Under the pieces are notes generated by a model. That model worked only from the letters and a program-made list of their open reading frames with translations, did no database searches and was not told the origin of the DNA. A DNA stretch of 48,546 bases, taken from Desulfobulbaceae bacterium (lineage in GTDB: Bacteria; Desulfobacterota; Desulfobulbia; Desulfobulbales; VMSU01). Each line of letters starts with the position of its first letter. Positions within the stretch are counted from its first letter, which is position 1. The stretch lies in the NCBI GenBank assembly GCA_013792005.1, contig VMSU01000137.1, positions 1 through 48,546 of the forward strand. The letters run 5' to 3'. Below are positions 9,681 through 48,313 of this stretch, piece by piece. Both the position numbers and the translations under genes were made by a program.

Positions 9681-9850
9681 GTTGTGGTGTAAACGTTCAC
9701 CGGGCACCCCATCTGCTTTGTTAGCGGCCTGCTCATGTGCAACTAGCACACTTCGCAGACCGCTTTCGTGCATCTGGGGCACCCGGTAAACGTTTACAGT
9801 CCGGTGAAATCAGCACGTTCAACGCTTCTGGTGAACGATTACGTTGTGGT
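9681..9850. mobile_element. MITE, family 2 (154 bp) with 8-bp target duplication
   Basis: The element spans 9689-9842 and is bounded by the perfect direct repeat GTTGTGGT at 9681-9688 and 9843-9850. Its ends are inverted: GTAAACGTTCACC on the left and the complement of GTAATCGTTCACC on the right. The left two thirds form a long imperfect hairpin: GTAAACGTTCACCGGGCACC pairs with GGCACCCGGTAAACGTTTAC, with inner stems AGCGGCCTGC/GCAGACCGCT and TGTGC/GCACA. It has no coding capacity. It sits between the unknown gene at 8911 and thpR, ending 42 nt before the thpR start, and so could carry that gene's promoter. Confidence 0.85.
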
Positions 9851-13519: not shown

Positions 13520-13563
13520 ATAACTATCCAGCAACACCACATCTGCTTGAGCTGGATAGTTAC
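13520..13563. repeat. Short palindromic element (44 bp) related to MITE family 2
   Basis: ATAACTATCCAGC (13520-13532) pairs with GCTGGATAGTTAC (13551-13563). The loop CACCACATCTGCTTGA shares CATCTGCTT with the larger family-2 copies. It ends one base before the selA stop codon. Flanks TCTACCTG (13512-13519) and GCTACCAG (13564-13571) match at 6 of 8 positions, like a decayed 8-bp target duplication. It may serve as the selA terminator. Confidence 0.6.
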
Positions 13564-29319: not shown

Positions 29320-29396
29320 TGGCGTCGCAAAAGCACACTGCGCCTTGTATATCGGCCTTTTTGCTTAGCCATCCCGTGACTTTTTGCGAGATTATC
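29317..29396. repeat. Repeat family 3, copy 1 (80 bp, inverted ends)
   Basis: Ends TGATGGCGTCGCAAAA and TTTTTGCGAGATTATCA are inverted relative to each other, enclosing GGCTAAGCAAAAAGGCC-type sequence (minus strand). A longer relative lies at 37610-37786. The flanks may share AAAG on both sides. The first three bases provide the mlaD stop codon. Confidence 0.75.
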
Positions 29397-29400
29397 AAAA

Positions 29401-31927: not shown

Positions 31928-32089
31928 GCAACTACTCTGGTTAACGGTAATCAGTTAGCGGTTTACAGTTAATAAAATCATCGCCAATCATGATTCATCG
32001 TATGACGCATGATATCAGTGTGTGCTCAGCTATTAGAAGGATAACTCACCGTCAACTGTCACCTGTAAACCGACAACCCGAGCAGTTAC
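31928..32089 (-). repeat. Repeat family 1, copy B (162 bp), inside an operon
   Basis: On the minus strand it starts GTAACTGCTCGGGTTGTC, contains TCGGTTTACAGG and its inverted counterpart CTGTAAACCG, and ends ACCAGAGTAGTTGC. It lies between the ATPase and permease genes of one efflux operon and occupies most of the 31894-32095 gap. No clean 8-bp duplication is seen at its edges. Confidence 0.8.
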
Positions 32090-34745: not shown

Positions 34746-36692
34746 TCAATATTTCTCTTGTCCCCACATGTCTGCGGTAAATCTGATGACCTTGTTTCGA
34801 CCTTCCTCTTTTGCCCGGTAGAGGGCCACATCGGCAAATTTAATCGCCTCCCAGAAACCATCCGTGTCCTGCGGAAATTCACTAACGCCGATGCTTATAG
34901 TCTTCTTCAAGGTCCCGGTAGGGACATTAATCACGGTATCTTCCATAGTTGCGCGTATTTTCTCAGCCAGCGCCATGGTGTCTTGGGTACTCTTCACGTC
35001 AATGAGCAAAACTATAAACTCCTCCCCCCCGTAACGGATCACCATATCCGAGGCCCTGACGCAGCTCTTCAACACCTCTGCCGTCTTAATCAGAACAACG
35101 TCACCAGTTTCATGACCATAGGTGTCATTGACCACCTTGAAAAAGTCCATATCACACATCAAGATACCAACTCTGGCGCCGCGCCGAACGGTACTGGCCA
35201 CCAAGGTGTTGGAATACGTTTCAAGGAAACGCCTGTTGTAGAGGTCGGTCATGGGATCACGCATGGTGGTCTCATGCAGGGCTGAGGCAAAACGTTTTGC
35301 CTCGATTACCGGTGTTGCCTCCTGAATATAACGAGTGGCCCTTTTCACCAGAAGCTCGAAATTTTCTCGGCTTTGCGGAGCGCTTGCAATCTCATGAAGG
35401 AACTGGACCACACCAACGACCTTGCCGTTGGCGATCATGGGGATACAATGATGCTCAAAAAGATCTTTATGAGGGAACTGTTTGCAGATTTCAGGGAATT
35501 CAAGGGATGAAATGGCATGGCCGGTGCGTTTGGCCCGACAAAAATTTGATTCTTCAAAAATTTCGGCACTGCAGACGTAATCAAAATTAGAGGCATAAGC
35601 CACAGACATGTTATTTTTTGATCCGGTAATCTCGTAAATATACAGTTTATCCAGATGGTATCGGTCCTGTAAGAGCCGAGCCAAACGAAGATTAACTTCA
35701 GTAGTGGATTCTTCCTCCTCAATAATCGCCTTAAATGTATTGAGGCTGAAGATATTATCAACCATGATGTTCAACTGATGAGCAAGCCGACCAACTTCAT
35801 CATTGCTTTTGACCTCAATTCTCTGGGAACGATCCCCCTCCCCCCTGGCGATGAAAGTAATCTTTTCCAGAATACTCCGTAAGGGAGTCGCAATAATAAA
35901 AATATACAGCAAGGTAGCAATCGCTAGAATTACAGCAATACATATTCCGATAATAATCGAACGAGATTTGGAGACATTGATAATATGTTCCAGTTCTTTA
36001 AATTGATCATTTTGGTCTTTATTACTCTCAACTGCCATGTCAATCAGCAGTCCATACACATCACCAAGAGATTCATTCAACTCAGAGACAAGTTCATCTT
36101 TTTCATCAACATCGCATTGACCCAAAAGACACTGATTCAGCGCCTGATTGGATTGTTCCAAGACAAGTGCTTTTTCTTTAATAGAGTCAAAAATAGCATT
36201 GATGCGAGGATCGTCTGACACCTCAACTACAAAGACATCGAGAGTTCTCTTTGCGACCTTGGCAACATCCTGGACTGCTCCTCCATTTTGCAACGCGTTG
36301 ACCATGAGATTCAAATCGGCAAGTCGTTGTTCATTGGCAAGGATATCGTAGTCGTTCTCAGAAAGTTGCGGTTTTGCGAGGATGTGAATAAGAGAAATCT
36401 TAAACCCATTGATTGATCGCAAGATATATTGGCTTATTTTATATTGGGGAATAAAAACATCTTTAATGACATGATTTCTGACTGCAATTCTTTCAAGTGT
36501 GATGGTGTTAAAGGAAATCAGCAAGGAAAACCCAAGAAGAGATACCACCAGTATGCCAATTAATTTTCCGGTAATACTGGTATCAAGGCATTTTTGAAAA
36601 AAACACCCCAAAAATGTTCCGGAAGGACAGTCGATCAGACCAAAGAGCGAAAATGTTTTTTTCTTAGCTTGAGTGGGTTCTGTGGAAGTCAT
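34746..36692 (-). CDS. Membrane-bound diguanylate cyclase (4HB-HAMP-GAF-GGDEF)
   Basis: Makes cyclic di-GMP. The 648 residues include TM1 (about 43-60), a helical periplasmic sensor (about 70-240), TM2 (about 243-270), HAMP (R-S-I-L-E-K-I-T-F-I-A-R-G-E-G-D), a GAF-like domain (about 325-455) and a C-terminal GGDEF domain with the active motif G-G-E-E-F at 555-559. R-A-S-D lies exactly five residues before that motif, forming an inhibitory I-site, so product feedback is likely. It stands alone; a family-1/family-2 repeat cluster lies just upstream and may contain or disturb its promoter. Confidence 0.94.
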   Translation of the reverse strand: MTSTEPTQAKKKTFSLFGLIDCPSGTFLGCFFQKCLDTSITGKLIGILVVSLLGFSLLISFNTITLERIAVRNHVIKDVFIPQYKISQYILRSINGFKISLIHILAKPQLSENDYDILANEQRLADLNLMVNALQNGGAVQDVAKVAKRTLDVFVVEVSDDPRINAIFDSIKEKALVLEQSNQALNQCLLGQCDVDEKDELVSELNESLGDVYGLLIDMAVESNKDQNDQFKELEHIINVSKSRSIIIGICIAVILAIATLLYIFIIATPLRSILEKITFIARGEGDRSQRIEVKSNDEVGRLAHQLNIMVDNIFSLNTFKAIIEEEESTTEVNLRLARLLQDRYHLDKLYIYEITGSKNNMSVAYASNFDYVCSAEIFEESNFCRAKRTGHAISSLEFPEICKQFPHKDLFEHHCIPMIANGKVVGVVQFLHEIASAPQSRENFELLVKRATRYIQEATPVIEAKRFASALHETTMRDPMTDLYNRRFLETYSNTLVASTVRRGARVGILMCDMDFFKVVNDTYGHETGDVVLIKTAEVLKSCVRASDMVIRYGGEEFIVLLIDVKSTQDTMALAEKIRATMEDTVINVPTGTLKKTISIGVSEFPQDTDGFWEAIKFADVALYRAKEEGRNKVIRFTADMWGQEKY

Positions 36693-36728: not shown

Positions 36729-37045
36729 GTAACTGCTCAGGTTGTCGGTTTACGGTTTACGGTGATTGGGTCCTGCCAATGGCTGAGGGCACACTGACAT
36801 TGAGTATCATGCGATGATTTAGTAAACGTTCAGCAGCACCGCATCTGCTTTGTCATCGGCCTGGTTCGCATACCATATGTATAGCTCACGGGCCTCTTTC
36901 GCGCATCTGCAGCACTGTGAACGTTTACAGTTCCGGGGTTACCTGTAGTTTCGGTACCCCTGGTGAACTGTCACATGATTTATGCCTAACCATGATTCTT
37001 TTAACCGTAAACCGATAACTGATTACCGTTAACCTGTGTCGTTAC
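36729..37045 (+). repeat. Repeat family 1, copy C, carrying a nested family-2 MITE
   Basis: Outer ends are GTAACTGCTCAGGTT (36729-36743) and AACCTGTGTCGTTAC (37031-37045), inverted relative to each other. Inner arms CGGTTTACGG and CCGTAAACCG also pair. Without the insertion at 36822-36974 and its duplicated octamer, the element would be 156 bp, like copy F. It fills most of the 36693-37075 gap. Confidence 0.85.
36814..36982. mobile_element. MITE family 2 (153 bp) inserted in a family-1 repeat, with 8-bp target duplication
   Basis: Element 36822-36974, flanked by ATGATTTA at 36814-36821 and 36975-36982. Copy F of the host repeat has a single ATGATTTA at the matching place (48243-48250), so this is a dated insertion. 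It starts GTAAACGTTCAGCAG and shares CATCTGCTTTGT and TTTCGCGCATCTG with the other family-2 copies. Confidence 0.88.
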
Positions 37046-37075: not shown

Positions 37076-37480
37076 CTACTTAATGACGTCTTTTTTTCGA
37101 ATACCACTAAGCTCAATATCTAACGCATTGACTGAAAGTAAAATTTCACGAAAAGACAACCCTAAGGAAATCATCATCAAAATTAAGCTTAAACTAAATA
37201 TTATTTTCCCAACAAAAATTTCTCCGGCAAAAAGCACAAACAGGCACAAAACACACAAGAAAAGACTGGCAACACCAAACGCCTGCATATTTCTAATCAG
37301 ATACAATCTTTTCCTCAAACTATCTATCTGACCAACTAATATATCATCCTGATTAAGTTTGTATTGAGAATGGAGCATACGAACACGTCCACCAATTGTA
37401 TTGAATCGATTGGTATATGCCACCAACAACAGTGAAATCGCAGGAAAGAGTAGAGCTGGTGTAGTTAAGGTAATGTCCAT
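37076..37480 (-). CDS. DUF2721-like small membrane protein
   Basis: A 134-residue inner-membrane protein with three predicted helices: residues about 7-24, 70-90 and 92-112. The motif N-R-F-N-T-I-G-G-R-V-R near 24-34, and a charged helix with R-K-R-L-Y-L-I-R-N after it, match the DUF2721 family of unknown function. It is flanked by repeats on both sides and has A+T-richer composition than its neighbours. Confidence 0.75.
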   Translation of the reverse strand: MDITLTTPALLFPAISLLLVAYTNRFNTIGGRVRMLHSQYKLNQDDILVGQIDSLRKRLYLIRNMQAFGVASLFLCVLCLFVLFAGEIFVGKIIFSLSLILMMISLGLSFREILLSVNALDIELSGIRKKDVIK

Positions 37481-37609
37481 AATGGCTGTTTAGCTAAAAG
37501 GCTATGGAATTTTGACTAAACGGCAGGACAGCGCTTGCTGTCTCCATCTCCCTCCAATCTACATTCTCACCCCTTAATATACCTAGTAAATAAAGTTCCT
37601 GACCATCAT

Positions 37610-37786
37610 TGATGGTCTCGCAAAAAGTCACGGGATGGCTAAGCAAAAGGGCCGACATACAGGTAAGCGATCGAAGAGAGACTCCGAGGCGCAGTGTGCT
37701 TTTGCGAATGAGGCCACACATATGGTGTGCCGAATGAGCAAAAGTGCGCTGCAACGCAGTAGATCGGGCTTTTTGCAACGCCATCA
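37610..37786. repeat. Repeat family 3, copy 2 (177 bp)
   Basis: Ends TGATGGTCTCGCAAAAAG and CTTTTTGCAACGCCATCA are inverted. The first about 60 bp match the family-3 copy at 29317-29396 on its other strand (AGTCACGGGATGGCTAAGCA, GGCGCAGTGTGCTTTTGCG); the rest is extra. It occupies most of the 37481-37789 gap; an ORF across it (37494-37790, minus) is repeat-derived and not counted as a gene. Confidence 0.8.
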
Positions 37787-37789
37787 TCA

Positions 37790-38794
37790 TTACTTGCTCG
37801 CAATAATCGCTTCCAGACTCTGATCTGGTCCGATCCGCCCGTGAGCCAAGTCCAAACTATGAATCCCCCCTTGCCGCCAGCGGGATACTCGATACAGCTC
37901 GCCGAAGAGGAATCCTGGTCGCCCCTCCAAGCCGTCCCCCTCGACTAACTCCGCTCCACGGCGAACAGTATCCATCATCCGCGGGGGCTGAGTCAGATGA
38001 TAAGGATTTCGTTCAATCTCACCCCGGTGACAGGACAGCGCCGCCACCAGCCAGGCCACGCCACTAACATCAAGGCCAATAAGGAGGTTGGGCGCAGCCA
38101 TAGGACGCCAGAATTCTGTCTCGACTGCCAAGACAGAATTCGCCCCCAAAGTAAATATCGCCAGAGCGGCGCTCACCAGACGGTGGGTCGCGATATGGGT
38201 CGGGTGATGATCCTCTTCGTGAGGCAATAAAACAATATCAGGGACTAGCTCGCTAAAAACTACGGCAAGGGCCTCGACCACAATATCCCAGTCTGGACAA
38301 TCTTCACCCGCCTTGAGATCAAACTCCACCGGCATCGACAACTGTCGGCACTCAAACCCGACCACGGCACAGGCAGCGTGCAGTTCCTGCCAACGGGCCT
38401 CCTGACGAGAAGAATCGCTGCCCAAGGTTATCGCAAGGTTGACAACTCTGGCACCCTGCTCATGGCGCAATCTAAGGGGTAAAGCGCCAGTCAGCATCTC
38501 ATCATCCGGGTGGGGCGAGCAGAGCACCACCACTGGAGACTTGCCGACACGTAGTAAGCGATCACAGGACACCCCATTTCGCGCATCTGGGGTGCCCTGC
38601 AATCGCTTACAGTTCTGAGTTAGAGCGCAGTTTCTAGTCGTTACCCCGTGATCACTTACCCCGGCACAGCCTGTGCTAAGCGCCGCATGACCGGACAAAC
38701 CACTCAATCGCACTCCCTGCTCGTAGGCCTTAGCATAGGCCTGCACATAAGGCAGCCACCGGCTCACCCCCTGCCGACCACTTAATTCATCCAT
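37790..38794 (-). CDS. PIG-L/LmbE-family deacetylase with MITE-derived linker
   Basis: Zinc-dependent N-deacetylase of the PIG-L family, acting on N-acetylglucosaminyl-type substrates. In 334 residues the catalytic motif is P-H95-P-D-D98-E and the third ligand is in H-E-E-D-H-H-P-T-H. A short N-terminal segment (residues 1-45: W-L-P-Y-V-Q-A-Y-A-K-A-Y) precedes it. Residues about 46-81 are encoded by a family-2 palindromic element that has been read through in frame. The catalytic domain looks complete, so the enzyme is probably active despite the insertion. It starts 22 nt after the DUF362 gene and is probably co-transcribed with it and DUF493. Confidence 0.88.
   Translation of the reverse strand: MDELSGRQGVSRWLPYVQAYAKAYEQGVRLSGLSGHAALSTGCAGVSDHGVTTRNCALTQNCKRLQGTPDARNGVSCDRLLRVGKSPVVVLCSPHPDDEMLTGALPLRLRHEQGARVVNLAITLGSDSSRQEARWQELHAACAVVGFECRQLSMPVEFDLKAGEDCPDWDIVVEALAVVFSELVPDIVLLPHEEDHHPTHIATHRLVSAALAIFTLGANSVLAVETEFWRPMAAPNLLIGLDVSGVAWLVAALSCHRGEIERNPYHLTQPPRMMDTVRRGAELVEGDGLEGRPGFLFGELYRVSRWRQGGIHSLDLAHGRIGPDQSLEAIIASK
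38554..38659. repeat. MITE family 2 copy (106 bp) inside the PIG-L coding sequence
   Basis: Ends GTAAGCGATCAC (38554) and GTGATCACTTAC (ending 38659) are inverted. The inner hairpin GTAAGCGATCACAGGACACC pairs with GGTGCCCTGCAATCGCTTAC around ATTTCGCGCATCT, a motif shared with the other family-2 copies. No clean target duplication remains. It is translated as residues about 46-81 of the deacetylase. Confidence 0.8.
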
Positions 38795-40017: not shown

Positions 40018-40070
40018 ACAAATCATTTATCGATATCTAAATGAAATCGATAAATTTTCTGACGATTTGT
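40018..40070. promoter_or_regulatory. AT-rich palindrome, operator or terminator
   Basis: Inner arms TTTATCGAT (40026-40034) and ATCGATAAA (40046-40054) are perfect inverted repeats. Outer arms ACAAATC (40018-40024) and GATTTGT (40064-40070) also pair. It lies between divergent operons, so it fits an operator as well as a terminator. Confidence 0.5.
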
Positions 40071-40224
40071 ATCTTTCATAATAAATACCGGCGGCATCCC
40101 GGTTGGGAAGCTGAACAGTTACGGTTCTGGGCTTCGGCACCTTTCTGGGTCAGAAGGTGGATAGTTACACAAAAGTTAGGCTTAATTTGAAACCCTCACT
40201 TAACATCCCGGCAACAATACAGAG

Positions 40225-48150: not shown

Positions 48151-48313
48151 ATAACTGCCCAGGTTGTCGGTTTACGATTGGCAGTTGACGGTGATTGGGC
48201 CCTGCCAATGGCCATGGACACACTGACATTGAGTATCATGCGATGATTTACAACTAACCATGATTCTTTTAACCGTAAACCGATAACTGATTACCGCTAA
48301 CCTGTGTAGTTAC
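48151..48313 (+). repeat. Repeat family 1, copy F (163 bp, complete)
   Basis: The most complete uninterrupted copy: starts ATAACTGCCCAGGTTG, ends AACCTGTGTAGTTAC, inner arms CGGTTTACG and CCGTAAACCG. Flanking octamers GAATTATT (48143-48150) and GAATCATC (48314-48321) agree at 6 of 8 positions, as in a decayed duplication. The 48057-48346 gap holds little else. Confidence 0.8.

Follow-up and report, generated by a model that had tools for sequence, protein, structure and literature searches.

Insertion of one MITE family into another in a Desulfobulbaceae genome, with element ends resembling those of IS66 transposons

In the 48,546-nt stretch of Desulfobulbaceae bacterium DNA analysed here (contig VMSU01000137.1, hereafter the window), positions 36729-37045 are an ordinary nested MITE insertion, in which a copy of a 163-bp inverted-repeat element class (F1) is interrupted, exactly to the base, by a 153-bp element of a second family (F2). 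The account that we consider highly probable is that F1 inserted first, that F2 followed with an 8-bp target duplication, and that both are MITEs whose movement depends on IS66-type transposases acting in trans. The locus and its related features in the window are the following.

36729-36821, plus strand: left part of F1 including the first ATGATTTA, with a GTAA end; 91% to F1 consensus 1-100
36814-36821, plus strand: left copy of the F2 target site duplication, ATGATTTA, single in uninterrupted F1 copies
36822-36974, plus strand: inserted F2, 153 bp; 41 genome matches; other copies show the ends and the 8-bp duplications too
36822-36928, plus strand: 107-bp hairpin unit of F2, from the left end GTAAACGTTCA to the internal inverted copy TGAACGTTTAC; supported by solo 107-bp copies and covariation
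36929-36974, plus strand: 46-bp F2 tail, which carries the right end (reverse GTGACAGTTCACC, mutated GTAACCGTTCACC)
36975-36982, plus strand: right copy of the F2 target site duplication, ATGATTTA
36975-37045, plus strand: right part of F1; 97% to F1 consensus 93-163
48151-48313, plus strand: uninterrupted F1, the empty-site paralogue; flanks GAATTATT / GAATCATC, 6/8 alike
31930-32089, minus strand: diverged F1 copy, 81%
9689-9842, plus strand: F2-superfamily variant copy with a perfect 8-bp duplication, GTTGTGGT
34746-36692, minus strand: GGDEF gene
37076-37480, minus strand: DUF2721 gene

The interrupted F1 copy has the ends GTAACTGCTCAGG...CCTGTGTCGTTAC and is entered by F2 at F1 consensus position 93-100. 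When F2 and one ATGATTTA are removed, the rejoined F1 is 156 nt long and differs from the consensus by four substitutions and one 7-nt deletion, which falls outside the F2 insertion site. The target duplication of this F1 copy itself is not clear (GAAAGCTC / AAAAAGCG), and the copy at 48151 starts with ATAAC, i.e. with a mutated end.

Both elements belong to multi-copy families in the genome, which is a 4.0 Mb draft of 252 contigs and 97.6% completeness. The F1 left end, part of the terminal inverted repeats GTAACTGCTCAGGTT / GTAACTACACAGGTTA, has 109 matches. Perfect 8-bp duplications flank 18 of 42 distinct complete F1 copies (22 of 42 when up to one mismatch is allowed), and flanks alike over 9 or 10 bp were found in none of the 42. 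Since flanks taken from different F1 copies matched perfectly over 8 bp in just 0.1% of pairs, the observed matches are not due to chance. F1 is short (163 bp), lacks transposase coding capacity, and is present in many copies with a duplication of fixed 8-bp length, the features of a MITE; its single-stranded DNA free energy lies below that of shuffled sequences (z -3.5). The whole element was found in its own genome only and is absent from the 57 relatives searched, where the F1 interior yielded nothing beyond short stretches, with matches of 28-40 nt to parts of F1 in four relatives.

F2, with terminal inverted repeats GTAAACGTTCA / GTAACCGTTCA, has the same MITE features (153 bp, no transposase coding capacity, many copies and a fixed 8-bp duplication) and is spread much more widely, being present in 35 of the 58 searched genomes of the order (own genome included). 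Among the 22 copies for which both ends were located, 13 have perfect 8-bp duplications and 21 match at 6 or more of the 8 positions. The copies fall into length classes of ~153, ~107 and ~77 bp, with 8-bp duplications in each. The terminus of the 107-bp class corresponds to the internal third end copy of the 153-bp class, and 107-bp copies also occur solo with 8-bp duplications of their own (e.g. locus L014). Across the Desulfobulbales, this F2 superfamily includes several end classes with related cores inside a single genome. A further F2-like sequence in the window, at 38554-38659 (GTAAGCGATCACAGG...CCGTGATCACTTAC, with the middle apparently deleted), lies within the 5' part of an ORF (37790-38794, minus strand) that encodes a PIG-L-family protein. 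This suggests that the start codon was wrongly assigned or, alternatively, that the coding sequence has captured an element.

The ends of F1 and F2, GTAA...TTAC, are like those of IS66-family transposons of related Desulfobulbales, whose transposases match PF03050 and many of which have perfect 8-bp duplications next to their GTAA ends. The F2 right-end consensus, GTAACCGTTCACCAGG, is identical to an end of IS66 element L382 at all 10 scored bases that follow GTAA (chance 2e-5) and has its first 13 bases in common with element L381, although these two best matches have no clear target duplication of their own. The F1 left end agrees with element L237 (GTAACTGTTCAGGT) at 9 of 10 bases (chance 5e-4), and F2 variants with GTAACTATCCAGCT ends match element L221/L368. 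Agreement with IS66 ends is moderate for the F2 left end (8/10, chance 0.007) and for the F1 right end (7/10, chance 0.05). The ends of the IS66 elements form distinct classes, so position-weight scoring of the pooled ends was not discriminating. These features correspond to published descriptions of the IS66 family, namely 20-30 bp inverted repeats starting with GTAAGCG and 8-bp repeats (PMC11946415), with 8-bp repeats also reported for two Paracoccus IS66 elements (PMC3281130).

The IS66 elements and their ends were also met in other settings. In both L237 (G006) and L381 (G073), a second ORF lies upstream of the IS66 transposase and encodes a DruA domain (PF14236). Within the window, a 44-bp miniature element at 13520-13563 (ATAACTATCCAGCAACACCACATCTGC..AGCTGGATAGTTAC), directly past the end of a selA-like gene, has ends as in L221, and several GTAAC end-like sequences occur in the intergenic stretch 40019-40168, possibly a decayed IS66-type MITE.

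Searches of the draft genome with PF03050, NF033517 and the L237 protein returned no IS66 transposase. Multi-copy elements are often missing from draft genomes of this kind, so the missing partner lowers the IS66 assignment without excluding it; the partner may have been lost, left unassembled or present only temporarily. As no partner was found in the draft genome, we infer the IS66 assignment from the ends and the duplication length. It is improbable that F1 and F2 are instead moved by a DDE transposase of another family that makes 8-bp duplications, with the GTAA likeness partly a coincidence. The empty search of the draft genome and the moderate scores of two of the four end matches speak for such an enzyme, and 8-bp duplications do occur in other families, as for an IS6 element tabulated in PMC3281130; against it, several separate IS66 elements of this order have ends that match almost exactly, and ends and duplication length fit the published IS66 features (PMC3281130, PMC11946415). 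Judged on their sequences, F1 and F2 are best read as MITEs mobilised in trans by IS66-type transposases. The nested locus arose when an F1 of ~163 bp entered the space that separates the DUF2721 gene from the GGDEF gene and an F2 of 153 bp later transposed into position 93-100 of that copy, where a staggered cut of the target, presumably made by an IS66 (DDE) family transposase supplied in trans, and gap repair would have duplicated the 8-bp ATGATTTA.

The original prediction had held that F2 is mobile and that it entered an F1 already in place, with the F1 copy at 48151 displaying the empty site; the positions and lengths that it gave hold exactly, and the genome-wide counts bear this reading out. 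The perfect 8-bp repeat ATGATTTA lies on both sides of F2 (36814-36821 and 36975-36982) and occurs once, at the equivalent position, in the insert-free copy at 48151-48313, which is a valid empty-site paralogue; F1 is the older element and F2 the later. Had most F1 copies carried the inner segment, it would have to be counted as part of F1, but a pattern for the uninterrupted site (36 nt, up to 3 mismatches) matched the genome 60 times, against none for the reversed control, and among the F1 copies fetched only the one at 36729 has F2 at this position. The reverse history, in which the inner 153 bp is original to F1 and was lost from the 48151 copy by recombination between the two ATGATTTA repeats, is extremely unlikely: deletion between short direct repeats would likewise leave a single ATGATTTA, but 60 F1 copies are without F2 at the site, F2 stands alone, flanked by separate 8-bp duplications, in dozens of other places, and it occurs across the order without F1. 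F2 as an original segment of F1 is refuted by these copy counts. The evidence for the empty site is paralogous rather than orthologous, because F1 is absent as a whole from the 57 relatives searched, and in congeners we found neither a conserved adjacency of the GGDEF and DUF2721 genes nor an orthologous empty site. A chimeric join at repeats can be dismissed as scarcely credible even for a 252-contig draft in which mis-joins occur at repeats, since a mis-join gives no exact 8-bp duplication with F1 resuming in register.

The nesting itself is not special. By our estimate, F1 copies add up to ~10 kb, which may be 1-2% of the intergenic DNA. If the ~40 F2 insertions are intergenic, about one of them should then fall within an F1; the single F2-in-F1 event is close to this random-insertion estimate. 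A second nesting was found in another F1 copy (G000:C174, L294), which holds an element of a third family, F3, of ~178 bp with TGATGG... ends (TGATGGTCTCGCAAAAAGTC) and 4-5 bp duplications. F3 is abundant in the same genome and in congeners, and copies lie in the window at 37609-37785 and 29325-29398. Together, F1 and F2 occupy most of the space from the DUF2721 gene to the GGDEF gene and stop 36 bp short of the GGDEF start codon. The region showed no promoter- or terminator-like sites above those in shuffled sequences, so an effect of F1 and F2 on expression is possible at most. The comparison with plasmids and phages gave no match.

The F2 core is folded and conserved well beyond this genome. 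In an alignment of 44 diverse elements of the F2 superfamily, drawn from many genomes, a 28-pair hairpin is paired in 88% of cells, and 161 cells are changed on both sides, counts that are inflated by related sequences, as compared with 25-39% paired and 9-20 double-changed cells when the partner is shifted by 1-3 columns. Pair 5-114 illustrates this, with CG in 18 elements, GC in 17, AU in 5 and UA in 1, and the inner stem also shows compensatory changes (pairs 38-81, 45-75 and 52-66). The unpaired stretches CATCTGCTTTGTCA and TTTCGCGCATCTG flanking the inner stem are strongly conserved. Because the core pattern used to collect the elements spans CATCTGCTTTGT and one arm of the inner stem, the conservation of this part is to some extent a product of the sampling, and inner-stem variation is under-counted. 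The single-stranded DNA free energy of F2 is below that of shuffled sequences (z -3.0). The three copies of the F2 end sequence change together: the left end is closer to the internal copy (6.0 of 7 bases alike, shuffled 4.1) than to the true right end (5.1 of 7, shuffled 4.0), the latter value being too high, if anything, because left-right matching helped to choose the elements. This pattern of ends and fold could come from a mobile 107-bp unit that needs matched ends, from selection on the fold, or from template-switch mutation in palindromes. A broader reading, which we regard as possible but doubtful, is that F2 is an order-wide selfish structured element and not a simple IS deletion remnant, with a 107-bp hairpin selected for its fold (as RNA or single-stranded DNA), conserved unpaired CATCTGCTTTGTCA and TTTCGCGCATCTG, and ends that were repeatedly adjusted to match different IS66-type transposases around an unchanged core. 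A search of Rfam gave no match in four loci with F2 variants and, elsewhere, one sub-threshold match outside the element.

Several known systems share part of these features. Hairpin repeats such as REPINs, NEMIS and RUP are short and palindromic with many intergenic copies, and the same is true of F2; F2 differs from them in having IS66-like end types and 8-bp duplications, and the stretches searched had no Rfam match. Like IS66 elements, F1 and F2 have GTAA ends and 8-bp target duplications, but neither holds a gene; L237, L381, L382 and L221 are partner candidates in the same order. Bacterial MITEs such as MITEPsy1 (PMC3189936) are likewise short and non-coding, with inverted ends, many copies and no transposase of their own. 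For MITEPsy1 of Pseudomonas syringae, the insertion sequence ISPsy2 in the same genome is a probable partner (PMC3189936), whereas no partner was found in the genome with F1 and F2, and F2 is further distinguished by its three end copies and order-wide conserved hairpin. No paper on IS66-type MITEs of Desulfobulbales was found in the literature searched, which lay outside subscription journals. In that literature both F1 and F2, the latter a folded, order-wide family, look undescribed.

The nested locus cleanly records a single insertion of a routine kind, and it defines two MITE families that are tied to IS66-type ends in Desulfobulbales. The order-wide structured core of F2 is the less ordinary part and may matter more than the nesting. 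Given that this core is conserved across the order while the ends change together, F2 could be used to test how non-autonomous elements track changing transposases, and likewise whether the hairpins of MITEs have a role.
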